Assembly: GCA_002067895.1 (NCBI GenBank)
Contig: MVRE01000020.1
Location: 1-64,000, forward strand
DNA: 64,000 nt
Source of the DNA: Methanoregula sp. PtaU1.Bin051
Lineage (GTDB): Archaea; Halobacteriota; Methanomicrobia; Methanomicrobiales; Methanospirillaceae
Direction: 5' to 3'
In this document: piece after piece, positions 7,185-29,854 of the stretch
Layout of the letters: each line of letters starts with the position of its first letter
Numbering within the stretch: position 1 is the stretch's first letter
Program-made: the position numbers and the translations under genes
Notes under the pieces: model-generated
Databases searched by the model: none
Told to the model about the DNA's origin: nothing
The model's input: only the letters and a program-made list of their open reading frames with translations

Positions 7185-7307
7185 CAAACTATTTCAGCGA
7201 TGAAACCAACGCAGACGATAAACGGTTTCATCCTGAATACATTCAGCTTTCTGGTTAATTCCCTAATCGTTTCTCTTATGAGCTTCTCCGTTCCATCAGT
7301 TTGTGTG

Positions 7308-9944
7308 ATGCGCGAGCCGCCGGTCAAGAAAATCCTGTACTGGTGCGAACAGTGCAACATCCCGCTTCTTGGAAAGAACTGTGCATGCGGTGCGGTGGGA
7401 CGGAATATCCCCCTTCTCCAGCCGTACGATGTACGCCCGGCGCTCGCTGCCGATATGGGCATGATCAGAAACCTTGTAACGGAAAGATTCGGGAACATAC
7501 CAGTCCCGAAGATCCTCCTTCTCAATAAGACCGGGGGGCTGGATCGTGCCGATCTGGTCATCGCAAACGGGTACCGGTTTGGCTGGCTTACGTTTGACCC
7601 GGTCGACAGGAAACACCGGTTTGACCTTGCACCGGAATCACTGCCTTTTATCATCGGGCATGCTGAAAGGGGGATTATCGATCTGGAGGCAACGGTCGGC
7701 CCTGATGCGACCAGAGGCAGGATCGGAGGTAAAAAATTCGCGATCGGTTCCCCCCAGCAGGATGGCATTGTCATCGTTCGGCTGCGGAATAAGTACGGGA
7801 CCGGCTCGGTTTCAGCCGGTTTCATCCGGGTAAAGGAGATCGGTATCGTTGAACAAAAAACCGTACCTGACCCCGGATGGGACATCGCAGTCAGGCAGAA
7901 CAGGTTCCATCTGAAAAACCTCGAACGCAATGCAATCCGTTCCATCCGCCACCATATGGAGGATCGTCCCACGGTCAATGTCTCCTTTTCCGGAGGCAAA
8001 GACAGCACGGCCGTCCTGAACCTGGCAAGAAAAGCCGGCGTGAATGATGCATTCTTTATCGACACCGGTCTCGAATTTCCCGAGACCGTTGAATTTGTCA
8101 AAGCACAGGGCATCGAGATTGTCCTCCCAGTAGCAGACTTCTGGCAGGCTGTCGTGAAGGCAGGACCTCCAGGCAAAGATCACCGCTGGTGCTGCAAGCT
8201 CTTAAAGCTCCGGCCGCTCAAGTTGTACCTCGCCCGTATCGGCCCCTGTGTCACGATACAGGGCAACCGCTGGTATGAGTCGTGGAACCGCGCCGGTCTT
8301 GATGAGACCTCTCAAAACCCGGACAACCCTCTCCAGCTCAATGTCTCTCCGATCCGGAACTGGCGCGCTCTCGAAGTCTTTCTGTATCTCTGGTGGCAGA
8401 AAATCCCGATCAACCCCTTATATGATATGGGTATCGAACGGATTGGATGCTATCTCTGCCCAGCTATGCTGGAGAGCGAGTATGAACAGTTAAGAAAACT
8501 TCATCCGGCCTATACAGAACGCTGGGATTCTTTCCTTGAGTCATGGGCTGAATCCCGCGGCATTCCGGATGTCTACTGCCGCTGGGGGCTCTGGCGCTGG
8601 AAGGCCCTCCCGAAAAAGATGCGGGAACTGTGCAGCACGAAAGGAATTGAACTTAATGAGGATTTTTCCGTGAAAGCAACAGTTGGTACACGAAGAGCAG
8701 GAAATTGTGTGAGAAAGGATGATGCAAGTATGAAAACGGCAGCAGACAGACATCAGGAGACATATGCGGTTGAGACGATACGAAAGGACTTCCCTATCGT
8801 ATCGGATCTCGTCTATATGGATAACGCAGCAACCAGCTTTTCCCCGGAGCCGGTCGTACAGGCGGTTGTCGAGTTCGAGCACCATTACCGGGCGAATGTA
8901 GGGCGGGGTGTTCACCGGCTTACCCGGATCGCATCCCAGCGGTACTGGCATGCCCACGAAAAGTTGGCGCAATTTGTCAACGGGTCCGGCGGGATTACGG
9001 TTTTTACGAAGAATACAACCGAGTCTATCAATATGGTTGCCGGGGGTATCGCATGGAAACCCGGGGACAGGATCGTAACAACGATCCTCGAGCACCATTC
9101 CAACCTCCTGCCATGGTTGAGCCTGGTAAAAAAGGGCGTTGAAGTGGATATAATCGGCATCCATGAGGATTATACACCGGATCTTACAGCTCTTGAAAAG
9201 GCGCTTGGGAAGGGTACACGGCTTGTTGCAATAACCCACGCATCAAATGTTGTAGGGGTTGTCACACCGGTTAAAGAGATTGCGAAGATCTGCCATGAGC
9301 ATGGTGCCAAGATCCTGATCGATGCAGCCCAGACTGTCCCCCATTTGCCCGTAGATCTCGGTGCGATCGGGTGTGACTTTGCAGCATTCTCCGGACACAA
9401 GATGTGCGGCCCTACGGGGACCGGCGTCCTCTGGATGAAAGAACCAATACTAGAACCATCCATTGTTGGCGGGGGGATGGTCGAGACAGTCTCAAAAACC
9501 GGTTTTGTTCCGGCAGAAGGTTATCAGAAATATGAGGCCGGGACTCCCAATATTGCCGGCGGGATCGGCCTTGGAGTTGCTGCAGATTACTTAAACACTA
9601 TTGGCATGAAAAAGATCCATGCCCACGAACAACGGCTTACTGCAAAACTGATCGACACGCTGAAATCAATTGATCGAGTGCATGTTTATGCCCCTGAATC
9701 TGCGGATAAACGGATCGGTGTCGTCTCTTTCACCATTGACGGGATTCATCCGCATGAGGTTGCACAATACCTTGATGAAAACGCGGACATCATGGTGCGC
9801 TCAGGCCATCACTGCTGCCAGCCCCTGATGGAATACCTTGGACTCCCCGATGGCACGGTAAGGGCGAGCCTTGCCCTCTATTCAACAGAGGATGAAGTCG
9901 ACCTGATGGTTGCGGCTGTCGAAGATATCGTGAAGGCTAGATAG
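7308..9944 (+). CDS. Fusion: zinc ribbon / PP-loop (PAPS reductase family) / SufS-type cysteine desulfurase
   Basis: A single uninterrupted frame of about 878 residues joins two enzymes. The N-terminal half has a zinc ribbon (CEQC and CAC, residues 13-27), a middle domain aligning with the PUA-bearing paralogue at 28433-29854, and an ATP-pyrophosphatase PP-loop SGGKDST (228-234) with RWCCK (294-298) and CYLC (381-384) cysteines. After a linker at about 445-490 comes a complete class V aminotransferase: the PLP lysine in SGHK (698) and the catalytic cysteine in SGHHCC (836), as in SufS. Frames open from 7200 and 7278, but the paralogue aligns from M7308 and no ribosome-binding site favours the earlier codons. 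Biochemically, desulfurase plus PP-loop suggests sulfur transfer to a nucleotide or RNA; this is inference. Confidence 0.88.
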   Translation: MREPPVKKILYWCEQCNIPLLGKNCACGAVGRNIPLLQPYDVRPALAADMGMIRNLVTERFGNIPVPKILLLNKTGGLDRADLVIANGYRFGWLTFDPVDRKHRFDLAPESLPFIIGHAERGIIDLEATVGPDATRGRIGGKKFAIGSPQQDGIVIVRLRNKYGTGSVSAGFIRVKEIGIVEQKTVPDPGWDIAVRQNRFHLKNLERNAIRSIRHHMEDRPTVNVSFSGGKDSTAVLNLARKAGVNDAFFIDTGLEFPETVEFVKAQGIEIVLPVADFWQAVVKAGPPGKDHRWCCKLLKLRPLKLYLARIGPCVTIQGNRWYESWNRAGLDETSQNPDNPLQLNVSPIRNWRALEVFLYLWWQKIPINPLYDMGIERIGCYLCPAMLESEYEQLRKLHPAYTERWDSFLESWAESRGIPDVYCRWGLWRWKALPKKMRELCSTKGIELNEDFSVKATVGTRRAGNCVRKDDASMKTAADRHQETYAVETIRKDFPIVSDLVYMDNAATSFSPEPVVQAVVEFEHHYRANVGRGVHRLTRIASQRYWHAHEKLAQFVNGSGGITVFTKNTTESINMVAGGIAWKPGDRIVTTILEHHSNLLPWLSLVKKGVEVDIIGIHEDYTPDLTALEKALGKGTRLVAITHASNVVGVVTPVKEIAKICHEHGAKILIDAAQTVPHLPVDLGAIGCDFAAFSGHKMCGPTGTGVLWMKEPILEPSIVGGGMVETVSKTGFVPAEGYQKYEAGTPNIAGGIGLGVAADYLNTIGMKKIHAHEQRLTAKLIDTLKSIDRVHVYAPESADKRIGVVSFTIDGIHPHEVAQYLDENADIMVRSGHHCCQPLMEYLGLPDGTVRASLALYSTEDEVDLMVAAVEDIVKAR

Positions 9945-20284: not shown

Positions 20285-20667
20285 AGGGGCATGGTCAGGG
20301 CATCGTGCGGGCAGGCGTCCACGCACTTGCCGCAGAGGATGCAGCGCTCCTCGGCAAGCCGGAGCCGGAACTCATCGTCGAACGAGAAGACGTCCCGCGG
20401 GCAGATGCTGATGCATGCGCCGCAGTCCACGCACTCGCTCTCGTTGAACGTTATCCCGTGTTCGAGGATCCGTACGTCCGCTCCAAGACTCGTCATCTTG
20501 TCGCGCACGAGCCGGCACTGGTCGTCCGGTACGTCGATGAGCGCCTCCCCCTCCGAGGAATCGATCACCGCCCGTTCGACCGTGATTAAGACACCGGTAT
20601 CCCGCACCGCCTGTGCAATGATGGGTTTCCTCCCCTTTCCGCGCGAGAAGTTCACCAGCAGTTTCAT
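20281..20667 (-). CDS. NIL-domain ferredoxin (2x[4Fe-4S])
   Basis: 128 residues. An N-terminal NIL domain (about 1-75, starting KLLVNFSRGKGRKPIIAQAV) is followed by two ferredoxin motifs, CVDCGACISICP and CILCGKCVDACP. It matches the electron- or sulfur-carrying partner (MA1822 type) of the DUF39-CBS protein in archaeal homocysteine synthesis. ATG 20667 overlaps the stop of that gene by 4 nt and has GGTGG upstream; the in-frame ATG 9 nt earlier is less likely. Confidence 0.93.
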   Translation of the reverse strand: MKLLVNFSRGKGRKPIIAQAVRDTGVLITVERAVIDSSEGEALIDVPDDQCRLVRDKMTSLGADVRILEHGITFNESECVDCGACISICPRDVFSFDDEFRLRLAEERCILCGKCVDACPHDALTMPL

Positions 20668-22169
20668 TTGAGCCACCTCCCGAAGAGTTTCCCGAGATTA
20701 ATCGCCGTCAGGATCGCCACGACATGGTTGTTTCCATCGACAACCGGAAGTGCGCTGATGTTGTGCTGCTCCAGCTTGCGGACAGCGACATCGACCGATT
20801 CGTCGGGAGTCGTTGTAATCACCTTCTTCTTCATGATATCCCGCACGAGGTTTGCCTTGCCCGGGTTTGCCACCGCTTTCGAAATGTCGAATGTCGTGAC
20901 GATCCCGACAAGCCTGCCCTCACTGTTGACAACAGGGAGGTGGTTTGTCTCGCCTTTCAGCAGTTTTAAGGCCGCGGTCCTGATCTCTTCCTCCTCGCCA
21001 ATGCTGACGATGTTTCTGTCCATGATATCGAGCACGCGGGGAGTCTTGACCGTCTCGTGCATCGGGCGTACCACCCGTTTCGGGTCGATCGATCTCGTGG
21101 GAAGAGAGAGCTCCATCTTTCCTGCCTTGATCCAGTCTTTCAGGGTCTCTGCAACCTGCCGGGCCCTGCGGAAGCTGGAGAGCGAGGAGGTCCGGATTTC
21201 CTCTCCGTTGAGATTTATGGAGCCGCTGCGTAGTTCGGCATAGGTGACCTTCCGGAGAGCCGGCCGGTTCCGGCTCGGGATGCCGTAATCGATCAGGTCG
21301 ACGCTGATATCCTCGTCCCGGACCGCAGTCGCACGCACGACCTCTTTGTCGATGACCGGCAGCGGGACACCAAGGCCGACATATAGCGTGACGCCGTACC
21401 CGGTCATTGTCGCCGCACGCAGGAAGTCCTGCGACATCTGTTTAAGATCCCCGGTCACCATCAGGGTGGAAAAGCCGCCTGCAGACGAGTGCTGGGTGCC
21501 TTCCCCGACCACCATGCCGGGAGCCCCGCAGAGGAAGATAGGCACTCCGGAACCGATCAGCCGGAGCTTCGGGTCATTGGAGATCGGGTTTAAGAGCCCT
21601 GCACCGGAGAACGTCACGTTTCCGCTGCTCGGAAGCAGCGTACCCATGTAGGTATGAAGCGTGCGGTCGGTCGTATTAACCGCGGCATTGTACCGCTGGT
21701 AGGCGTTCCGGGGATTGCACATGATCGCCTGGTTTAAGTGCTCCAGCAAGAGTTCCGTTGTGATCGTCCGGCGCGGGTAGCAGTCGGTCCCTTTCGAGAT
21801 AGCCCGTAGCGAGACTGCCTTTCCTGCGACAAGGTCCTCGATCACGTGGGCTCCGCCATACTCCTCCCCCCGGGTCTCCGACTGCTGGGTGGCGCCGATA
21901 TACGCGTCCACTGCCGCAAGCCCGCCATATGCCTCGACATCGTTTAACCAGATCCGCTCCATGCGGATCGGGGGCTCGGCATGGCCGAAGTTGAGAAATG
22001 CCCCTGATGAGCACATGGCGCCAAAGGTCCCGGTGGTGACAACGTCCACCTCTTTAAGAGCCCCGTCCTCGCCGAGTTCTGCGACAATCTTGGGCATCTC
22101 TTCTGCCGTAACGACCCTGGCATTCCCGTCACGTATCCGCTCGTTGATCTGGTCGATAGACTTGCGCAT
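20664..22169 (-). CDS. Homocysteine biosynthesis protein, DUF39 with two CBS domains
   Basis: 501 residues. The N-terminal DUF39 (COG1900) domain contains C53 (FGAMCSSGAF) and C130 (GTDCYPRR), matching the spacing of the two conserved cysteines of the Methanosarcina protein MA1821, which converts aspartate semialdehyde to homocysteine with sulfide-derived sulfur. Two CBS domains (about 380-500) probably bind an adenine nucleotide or S-adenosylmethionine and regulate activity. It is first in the operon with NIL-ferredoxin and UPF0280. M22169 lies about 25 nt from a TATA (22191-22200), implying a leaderless mRNA; the longer frame reaching 22214 is upstream of that. Confidence 0.93.
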   Translation of the reverse strand: MRKSIDQINERIRDGNARVVTAEEMPKIVAELGEDGALKEVDVVTTGTFGAMCSSGAFLNFGHAEPPIRMERIWLNDVEAYGGLAAVDAYIGATQQSETRGEEYGGAHVIEDLVAGKAVSLRAISKGTDCYPRRTITTELLLEHLNQAIMCNPRNAYQRYNAAVNTTDRTLHTYMGTLLPSSGNVTFSGAGLLNPISNDPKLRLIGSGVPIFLCGAPGMVVGEGTQHSSAGGFSTLMVTGDLKQMSQDFLRAATMTGYGVTLYVGLGVPLPVIDKEVVRATAVRDEDISVDLIDYGIPSRNRPALRKVTYAELRSGSINLNGEEIRTSSLSSFRRARQVAETLKDWIKAGKMELSLPTRSIDPKRVVRPMHETVKTPRVLDIMDRNIVSIGEEEEIRTAALKLLKGETNHLPVVNSEGRLVGIVTTFDISKAVANPGKANLVRDIMKKKVITTTPDESVDVAVRKLEQHNISALPVVDGNNHVVAILTAINLGKLFGRWLK

Positions 22170-22190
22170 GCCTTGAAATGTCGTTTTATG

Positions 22191-22250
22191 AATATTTATA
22201 CTATTCTTTATCACTCTTGGTAATATTACCGCCCGGCACAGTCATAAATC
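22191..22250. promoter_or_regulatory. Divergent promoters flanking the palindrome GGTAATATTACC
   Basis: TATAAATATT on the minus strand (22191-22200) serves the homocysteine operon; TCATAAATC (22242-22250) could serve the Nif3-like gene. A perfect 12-bp palindrome, GGTAATATTACC, lies at 22219-22230 between them, a good position for a shared operator. Spacing suggests both mRNAs are leaderless. Confidence 0.5.
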
Positions 22251-27849: not shown

Positions 27850-28455
27850 TCAGACCATCCCGATGAAATTTTTTAGGATCTTCAGTCCCACGGCCCCGCT
27901 CTTTTCCGGGTGGAACTGGACGCCAAACGTCATGCCGCTGACTATCGAGGATGCAAAGGGGCAGATGTACGTGGTGGTTGTAAGCGTATTTTCCGGGCCG
28001 GTGTCTGCGTAATAGGAGTGGACGAAGTATACGTACTCTTCTGTCGCGCAGCCTTCATACAGGGAGCTCTCAGGCCGGGTAAGCACGATCGAGTTCCAGC
28101 CCATGTGGGGGATCTTCATCCCCGGCGCTTTCGGGAACCTGCGGACCCGGCCGGGGATCAGAGAGAGGCCCTTGTGGAGCCCGTGCTCCTCGCTTTCTTC
28201 CATCAGCATCTGCATGCCAAGGCAGATCCCTAAGAGCGGGACACGCCCTGCTGCCGCGAGCACGGACTCCTTGATCGGCCCGAGCTGGTCCATGCCTTCA
28301 CGGAATGCCCCGACTCCCGGTAGCACGATGCCGTCGGCTGCTTCAATCTCTTCCGGCCGTGCAGTGATGACTGCGGTTGCCCCGGCTTTTTCAAGCCCGC
28401 GGTTGACGCTGCGCAGGTTGCCTAACCCGTAATCAACAATCGCTATCTTCTTCAT
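27850..28455 (-). CDS. hisH: Imidazole glycerol phosphate synthase, glutamine amidotransferase subunit
   Basis: 201 residues, a class I glutaminase: nucleophile in LLGICLGMQ, catalytic His/Glu in VQFHPEKSG, start KKIAIVDYGLGNLRSVN. HisH releases ammonia from glutamine for HisF, which makes imidazole glycerol phosphate and AICAR in histidine synthesis. No other his gene is in this window. The 5' end overlaps the PP-loop protein gene by 23 nt, so they are transcribed together, which is an unusual pairing. Confidence 0.96.
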   Translation of the reverse strand: MKKIAIVDYGLGNLRSVNRGLEKAGATAVITARPEEIEAADGIVLPGVGAFREGMDQLGPIKESVLAAAGRVPLLGICLGMQMLMEESEEHGLHKGLSLIPGRVRRFPKAPGMKIPHMGWNSIVLTRPESSLYEGCATEEYVYFVHSYYADTGPENTLTTTTYICPFASSIVSGMTFGVQFHPEKSGAVGLKILKNFIGMV

Positions 28456-29854
28456 TCTGAAATCCTTCCCGCACGCGCCATCTGCCGGTGCATGCCCAGT
28501 CTGCCGGGAGATTCTGTTTCTCCTGCCAGTGGTTCAGGTGATGGGCCCATCTGTCCCAGAGGAGGGGATAGCCGGATTCGATCCGGTGAATCATTGCCAT
28601 ATCGCTCGCCGGGCACATGAAACATCCGATCCGGTCGAGGCCGCGTTCGTACAGCGCGTTGTAGGGCGCATGCTCCCGCATGATGTAGAGCCACACGTGC
28701 AGCGCGGTCCAGTTGTGGATCGGTGCTGCGCAGAGCTGGGCGGGGACGTTTGGGTTTCTCCAGACCCGCCGGCTCTGCGCCCGGCGCTGGGACTCGTACT
28801 TCCGCTGGCCGATGAACGAGAGGCACTCTCCCCACCGGGACCGGATGAGCGCGAGCACCGGTTCCAGCTTGCACGCGCTGCAGCACCAGCGGGCATTCAT
28901 CGCGGGAGGGCCCAGCTCGTTAAAACGCTCCCAGAACTTCTCAGGCCTGTCCGTTGCAGCGACTTCAAGCCCGAACCGCTCCGACACGGCACGGACGTTC
29001 TCGTACGTCTCGGGGAACTCCATGCCGGTGTCCGCAAAGATTAAGGGGAGCTTCCCGATTGCTTTTTTTACGACAAGGAGGGTTGCGAGGCTGTCCTTGC
29101 CCCCGGAATACGAGATGGTTGCCTGCAGTGCATTTTGCTCCGAGACGTTTCGGACAAATTCCATGGACGCTGCCTCTGCCCGGATAAGGACGTCCCTGTT
29201 GGCATTAACCGCAGTCTCCCATGTCGCGGTGCCGGTGACGATCCGGGACGGGATGTTCCTCCGTGTCCGGACAACCTGGCCGCGGTCCATGCTGCGTGCA
29301 GTTTCTGCGGAAACTTTTGCCCGGCCCGCACCGATGCATGTCCCGTCCCTTGAGAGTATGAGGACTTCGTCACCTGCATTGACCGTGTCCTCGATCGCAA
29401 CAAGGCCCGGGGCGAGGACGGACGCTGCATTCTCGCGGATCGTCCGCACAGCGCCGTCATCCACAACGACAAAACGGCGGGACGGTTTTAACAGGGCGCC
29501 GGCCTCGGGACGGGGGATGGGTTCGTACCGTCGCTCTTCCGGGATGTACCGGATCGATCCGGCAATTCCCCCACCGATTATAATCTCTTCCATCCGGTCC
29601 TTGTCCGGCACCTTGTTGAGCAGGCAGATATGTCCCTCCGGTACGAGCGGGGATCCGAAGTGGTCATTGTAGATCGCGTTGATCATGGCGATGTCGGACG
29701 GGAATGCAGGGCGTGCATCCCCGGGAGGTGTCACTGGCACTTCGCGGGTTGCTGCCCCGCAGGAGCACCGTTCCGCAAGGACCGGCACGTGGCAGGCATC
29801 GCACCAGCGCAGGAGAATTCTTCCCAGATACGAGGGACGCATTGCTCTATGCAT
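28433..29854 (-). CDS. PAPS-reductase-family PP-loop protein with zinc ribbon and PUA domain
   Basis: 473 residues. A zinc ribbon (CDAC, CSC, residues 18-32) is followed by a short mixed domain, a PUA-type RNA-binding module (about 148-200, containing AGDEVLILSRDG and GAGRAKVSAE), and a PP-loop ATP pyrophosphatase with SGGKDS (250-255) and cysteines at RWCCSAC (323-328) and CFMC (411-414), which could bind an iron-sulfur cluster. It is the archaeal PUA-fused PAPS-reductase-like type, paralogous to the N-terminal half of the fusion at 7308-9944. True PAPS reduction is not implied; RNA sulfuration is a reasonable guess. M29842 is an alternative start. Confidence 0.88.
   Translation of the reverse strand: MHRAMRPSYLGRILLRWCDACHVPVLAERCSCGAATREVPVTPPGDARPAFPSDIAMINAIYNDHFGSPLVPEGHICLLNKVPDKDRMEEIIIGGGIAGSIRYIPEERRYEPIPRPEAGALLKPSRRFVVVDDGAVRTIRENAASVLAPGLVAIEDTVNAGDEVLILSRDGTCIGAGRAKVSAETARSMDRGQVVRTRRNIPSRIVTGTATWETAVNANRDVLIRAEAASMEFVRNVSEQNALQATISYSGGKDSLATLLVVKKAIGKLPLIFADTGMEFPETYENVRAVSERFGLEVAATDRPEKFWERFNELGPPAMNARWCCSACKLEPVLALIRSRWGECLSFIGQRKYESQRRAQSRRVWRNPNVPAQLCAAPIHNWTALHVWLYIMREHAPYNALYERGLDRIGCFMCPASDMAMIHRIESGYPLLWDRWAHHLNHWQEKQNLPADWACTGRWRVREGFQNEEDSDC

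Follow-up and report, generated by a model that had tools for sequence, protein, structure and literature searches.

A PP-loop ATPase domain fused to a SufS-type cysteine desulfurase in Methanomicrobiales, a candidate ATP-dependent sulfur-transfer enzyme

Introduction

In the Dnd, Ssp, and BREX-4 systems, a cysteine desulfurase and a PP-loop protein are separate yet interacting partners (PMC7188994). A single protein that joins two such domains has been recorded in methanogens, in 2018 as a "putative APS/PAPS reductase with C-terminal cysteine desulfurylase domain" (PMC6286981) and in a 2024 survey of archaeal fusions and fissions as "CysH-SufS," cluster 536, found only in Methanomicrobiales (PMC11237513). 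In the sections of these two papers that list the protein, its architecture is identical to the one analyzed here and it is filed under sulfate reduction; sulfur transfer, linkage to fdhD, and status as sole desulfurase do not appear in those sections. The architecture, which a sequence-only reading of this DNA had set apart from known systems, was thus already in print, which lessens its novelty and leaves the question of its function undiminished. What we add is a case against a role in sulfate reduction, the linkage to fdhD, and the observation that some genomes yielded no desulfurase other than the fusion.

How methanogens mobilize sulfur is an open question, and some lack any cysteine desulfurase (PMC8351635, PMC12647591).

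Results

One reading frame encodes a PP-loop domain and a complete cysteine desulfurase

The window, which is the whole stretch of DNA analyzed here, comprises 64,000 nucleotides of Methanoregula sp. PtaU1.Bin051 (contig MVRE01000020.1); its source genome is Methanoregula-like and 96% complete. The fused gene is a single open frame of 878 codons at 7308-9944 on the forward strand. The frame is open over 7200..9944 and closes with a TAG stop at 9942-9944; the ATG at 7308 agrees with the starts of orthologues (MREP...) and gives a product of 878 amino acids. The features of this gene, and of a related gene elsewhere in the window, are as follows.

7308..9944, +, fused gene, 878 aa: Cys4 ribbon, domain at the PUA position, PP-loop/[4Fe-4S] domain, linker, SufS-type cysteine desulfurase
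7344..7388, +, Cys4 zinc-ribbon-like motif C13-x2-C16 ... C25-x-C27 (alignment of fused and related forms)
7629..7847, +, beta-rich region, residues 108-180, at the position of the paralogue's PUA domain, with no family match (AF2 model and alignment)
7974..8465, +, PAPS_reduct PP-loop domain, residues 223-386 (Pfam PF01507, E 7e-37; genome-level match at the same place)
7989..8006, +, SGGKDS, the ATP-pyrophosphatase loop in intact form, residues 228-233 (no variation in alignments A1 and A2)
8190..8195, +, C295-C296, first two cysteines of a predicted APS-reductase-type [4Fe-4S] ligand set (82/82 fused; aligned with CC of 2goy)
8448..8459, +, C381-x2-C384, other two cysteines of the predicted ligand set (82/82 fused; aligned with GCEPC of 2goy)
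8631..8633, +, C442, cysteine of the fused clade and candidate persulfide acceptor (residue counts across forms)
8682..8777, +, flexible, variable linker (pLDDT ~30; table of lengths)
8778..9941, +, SufS-type cysteine desulfurase domain with K698 (PLP lysine), C836 (catalytic cysteine), and C837 (second cysteine) (PF00266, TIGR01979, SufS structures in the PDB)
28433..29854, -, N-half paralogue without a desulfurase, 473 aa, outside the fused gene: Cys4 ribbon, PUA, PP-loop/[4Fe-4S] (36% identity)

The sequence-only reading had described a zinc-ribbon PP-loop domain and a complete SufS-type desulfurase linked covalently in one chain, and this description is borne out: the Cys4 motif, SGGKDS, K698, and C836 are all present. 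The C-terminal half matches Pfam Aminotran_5 (PF00266) over residues 502-866 (E 8e-125), and SufS structures in the PDB down to E 9e-103. It also matches the SufS family of NCBIfam (TIGR01979) over its full length at residues 490-876, with 435-438 bits (E ~1e-130), which is below the curated cut-off of 475 bits, as are the scores of standalone archaeal SufS proteins. The N-half was modeled well by AF2 (pLDDT 88.9). In the full-chain model (pTM 0.57) the linker is disordered, and the two halves of the predicted monomer have no fixed mutual arrangement.

The fusion is conserved across Methanomicrobiales

A search for the two-domain architecture in Methanomicrobiales, which the sequence-only reading had proposed, found 80 distinct near-full-length fusions of 55-75% identity, every one from this order; one internal stop is present in 3 of the 80. 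A genome scan gave 75 loci, nearly all in Methanomicrobiales and mostly with both halves in one frame, and the fusion is present in more than half of 60 relatives, several of which are finished single contigs. The same reading had named separate genes in close relatives, with a faulty junction here, as grounds for doubting the fusion. In one relative (G027, locus L143), the halves are indeed neighboring genes in different frames, overlapping at ATGATG, as might be expected if a sequencing or assembly error had joined two genes in the window. However, in the tree described below this pair branches inside the fused group, and the single frame recurs in all 80 distinct sequences, some of them from finished single-contig genomes. 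The orthologues therefore refute an artefact, to which we assign a negligible probability.

Across the fusions there is almost no variation in the Cys4 ribbon, C295/C296/C381/C384, SGGKDS, or the desulfurase residues, whereas the linker varies freely in both length and sequence. K698 is invariant and C836 is present in 79/80; C13, C16, and C25 occur in every fused sequence that spans them and C27 in 77/79, and all four of these cysteines are also found in unfused, ferredoxin-type, and paralogous forms. Codon-aligned comparison with a relative at ~74% identity gave an NG86 dN of ~0.18 and a dS of ~1.9-2.4, the latter being saturated. These comparisons indicate that both halves are under purifying selection and that the linker is free of it.

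Linker length in the 80 fusions has a median of 43 aa and a range of 27-69. Loci L140 and L141 (genomes G022 and G031) have a low-complexity linker of ~138 aa and a changed catalytic motif (IHGC/LHGC in place of HHCC), and a separate SufS gene adjoins fdhD in both genomes. An internal start for separate expression of SufS was considered and rejected: by raw count, 38/80 linkers contain a start with a match resembling a Shine-Dalgarno sequence, and this feature is not conserved.

In a quick tree of the N-halves, with moderate supports and with ferredoxin-fused relatives from elsewhere in the phylum as the outgroup, the fused proteins form one group that also contains four unfused members and the one adjacent-gene pair. 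Next to this group stands a clade comprising twelve unfused proteins from Methanomicrobiales. The desulfurase halves are close to each other and to a set of standalone SufS proteins. The simplest reading of the N-half tree is one fusion followed by several losses.

The N-half combines an ATP-pyrophosphatase loop with a predicted [4Fe-4S] site

The SGGKDS loop aligns with the degenerate SGAEDV of the APS reductase 2goy. By alignment to the same structure, the CC ... CxxC set C295, C296, C381, and C384, present in 82/82 fusions, is predicted to form an APS-reductase-type four-cysteine [4Fe-4S] site, of which the sequence-only reading made no mention. By Foldseek, the solved folds nearest to the N-half are those of APS/PAPS reductases and of TtuA, a [4Fe-4S] tRNA sulfurtransferase. 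In its motifs the N-half is a hybrid: its ATP-pyrophosphatase loop is the one seen in CysD and the thiolases, and its [4Fe-4S] ligands are those of APS reductase.

A PRK13795-type match covers residues 8-459, and the scores fall short of the cut-offs of the PRK13795 families (390/745, 296/588, and 290/456 bits). On these scores the fusion is related to, but outside, the named families. We take arCOG00073 to be its archaeal cluster name; a literature search on that name gave nothing.

At the end of the PP-loop domain, C442 (KMRELC) is present in 79/82 fused proteins, in 4/4 secondarily unfused ones, and in the adjacent-gene pair, and a cysteine occupies this position in 1/14 other unfused and 1/9 ferredoxin-type forms. 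It is missing from three fused proteins of the Methanocorpusculum lineage. This distribution makes C442 a candidate persulfide acceptor, but it could equally be a marker of the clade, as a relay function is inseparable from shared ancestry and would be lacking in those three fusions.

The sequence-only reading had suggested a sulfur-relay or RNA-thiolation role. The sulfur relay is the best-supported reading; RNA thiolation fared less well, as no RNA-binding domain was recognized in the fused protein. The paralogue carries both a PUA domain (Pfam E 7e-18) and a PAPS_reduct domain (E 1.5e-44), and over the whole N-terminal region its homology to the fusion is clear (E 3e-13). A hidden PUA domain in the fusion was nevertheless rejected: Pfam detected none, and profile-profile comparison of the corresponding region gave a probability of 1.4%, neither being significant. 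A ThiI-family gene is present in 31/31 genomes tested. RNA as the acceptor of sulfur would be a guess. The paralogue gene shares a 23-nt overlap with a HisH-like glutamine-amidotransferase gene at 27850-28455.

The desulfurase half is the only one found in its genome and tracks fdhD

The related PLP enzymes in the window's genome are the fusion, one SepCysS, and one transaminase, and the fusion is the only recognizable cysteine desulfurase found there. In the finished genome G004, PF00266 likewise matches only once at E<=1e-20. Neither genome has IscU-type NifU_N, while a SufB-family protein is present. Elsewhere in the window, at 20664-22214 on the reverse strand, lies a gene for an HcyBio homocysteine biosynthesis enzyme (sulfur incorporation) with CBS domains.

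Of 36 fused genes, 20 have an fdhD gene within 1 kb, compared with 0/21 unfused PP-loop (N-half) genes (Fisher p 7e-6, a value that ignores relatedness and is indicative). Standalone SufS proteins fall into two sets. The genes of the first, whose products are ~55-60% identical to the fused domain, are almost always just upstream of fdhD (13/16 within 1 kb, on the same strand and mostly ~80 nt apart); those of the second, ~45% identical, are never near it (0/12). The orientation of fdhD relative to the fusion varies (convergent, upstream, or downstream), which suggests that the linkage was retained repeatedly. The second cysteine, C837, was set aside as a fusion-specific feature because the HCC motif is also found in the nearby standalone SufS proteins.

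Since E. coli FdhD obtains its sulfur from IscS (PMC6239281), this linkage indicates that the desulfurase half probably keeps an older role of serving FdhD. Other conserved neighbors are thiM, found 3' of the fusion and on its strand at 15 loci, most of them from Methanoregula and usually with thiE, and larE, which lies 5' on the same strand in two loci (L092 and L095). The window's own fused gene is not beside fdhD, and thiM and larE are likewise absent from its neighborhood. The fusion had been envisaged as a self-contained sulfur-transfer machine. That view has to be revised: the desulfurase half tracks fdhD, and no other desulfurase was found in the window's genome, so this half probably has several clients and not its own PP-loop partner alone.

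Discussion

We favor, with modest confidence, the reading that the fusion is an ATP-dependent sulfur-transfer enzyme with a built-in, probably shared, sulfur donor whose desulfurase supplies FdhD and other needs. The C-terminal domain would take sulfur from cysteine to form a persulfide on C836, and the N-terminal domain would bind ATP through SGGKDS, carry a [4Fe-4S] cluster on C295/C296/C381/C384, and activate an acceptor by adenylating it. Sulfur would then cross the flexible linker to the N-half, perhaps by way of C442 or a cluster-bound sulfide, and pass to the acceptor. The desulfurase domain would probably also feed FdhD and, since no other desulfurase was found in the genome, further sulfur-requiring processes. 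It is a tentative further proposal that the protein uses ATP and a [4Fe-4S] cluster to thiolate RNA or some cofactor of methanogens, its built-in desulfurase being the only one in the cell and having FdhD among its clients. Against sulfur transfer stand the full-chain pTM of the AF2 model and the location of the window's own gene away from fdhD. The occurrence of an unfused N-half in some genomes shows that this half can work without a covalent desulfurase.

Under the published label, the N-half would be a reductase that makes sulfite from PAPS or APS, and the desulfurase would add cysteine-derived sulfur or maintain the cluster. This would accord with the name of the Pfam family (PF01507), with the match of the [4Fe-4S] ligand set to APS reductase, and with a tree that, in the relevant section of its paper, places archaeal homologues with M. 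jannaschii APS/PAPS reductases (PMC6286981); the same section cites APS and PAPS reductase activities of M. jannaschii proteins in this broad tree (Lee 2011, Cho 2013), yet itself notes that the source of APS/PAPS is unclear. Our genome searches bear on that point. ATP sulfurylase was found in 0/61 genomes and CysN over its cut-off in 0/41, with neither in the window's genome, so no source of APS is seen; APS-kinase matches occur in 58/61 genomes but are mostly to a short P-loop, near full length in three only, so that a clear APS kinase is present in 3/61. The protein does not come near the curated CysH, APS reductase, and PAPS reductase cut-offs (TIGR00434, 37.5/165 bits; TIGR02055, 53/235; TIGR02057, 27/254), and its PP-loop is of the ATP-binding form. 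It has no ECGLH tail motif, and its sole conserved tail cysteine, C442, has no counterpart in most unfused and ferredoxin-type forms. Based on the intact PP-loop, the low scores, and the missing sulfate activation, the "CysH" or "putative APS/PAPS reductase" label is unlikely to describe the job of this protein, and we consider sulfonucleotide reduction improbable.

A different division of labor, in which the main job is desulfuration for FdhD, Fe-S assembly, and others and the N-half, instead of thiolating by itself, mostly accepts sulfur or regulates, would fit the sole-desulfurase status in the window's genome and in finished G004, the confinement of fdhD linkage to the desulfurase half, and the same-strand larE and thiM neighbors. 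We regard it as unlikely, although less so than sulfonucleotide reduction: the loop and cluster cysteines of the N-half are conserved as strictly as the desulfurase and the N-half persists unfused elsewhere, so it probably has an enzymatic job of its own, and the fdhD linkage counts lack phylogenetic independence. DNA phosphorothioation as in Dnd, Ssp, or BREX-4 is suggested by the closest PADLOC defense profiles (BrxP, E 1e-37; SspD, 8e-12; DndC, 2e-7; all partial-length), and the fused query also matched a real Ssp operon from Lachnospiraceae (L108), where both partners are separate genes accompanied by SspB and SspC. Yet SspB/SspC and DndD/DndE profiles had no match among the ten genes neighboring the fusion, the fusion is order-wide and not sporadic, and its conserved neighbors (fdhD, thiM-thiE, larE, and nadA) include none for defense, making such a function highly improbable. 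The Lachnospiraceae operon (L108 1648-10743) is called Ssp-type by PADLOC, with BrxP/SspD-like, SspB, SspC, and SspA genes; a last gene after SspA has weak restriction/helicase-type profile matches.

If the ATP-dependent sulfur-transfer reading is correct, the "PAPS reductase" annotation is misleading across the order, and the fusion offers direct access to the route by which sulfur reaches formate dehydrogenase and to a thiolation not yet assigned. It would also bear on methanogen sulfur mobilization, as the only desulfurase found in some genomes is fused to a PP-loop enzyme.

Among known systems, SspA with SspD, DndA with DndC, and the BREX-4 desulfurase with BrxP resemble the fusion in pairing a desulfurase with an ATP pyrophosphatase of the PAPS-reductase family, and DndC carries a [4Fe-4S] cluster that recalls the site predicted here. 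Their partners are separate, whereas those of the fusion are covalently joined behind a Cys4 ribbon and have no DNA-recognition or motor partner among the ten neighboring genes. We therefore treat these systems as a functional analogy and do not claim membership, because the partner genes are missing from the ten neighbors scanned. The tRNA thiolases TtuA/NcsA and ThiI are likewise PP-loop ATPases, and TtuA uses a [4Fe-4S] cluster, but they lack a fused desulfurase. The ferredoxin-fused proteins of the PRK13795 type share a homologous ribbon and PP-loop core at ~40% identity; they have a C-terminal ferredoxin where the fusion has its desulfurase, and mostly lack a cysteine at the C442 position. 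SufS and CsdA are the counterparts of the whole C-terminal half, from which the fusion differs in the extra cysteine that follows the catalytic one (HCC) and in the PP-loop domain at its N terminus.
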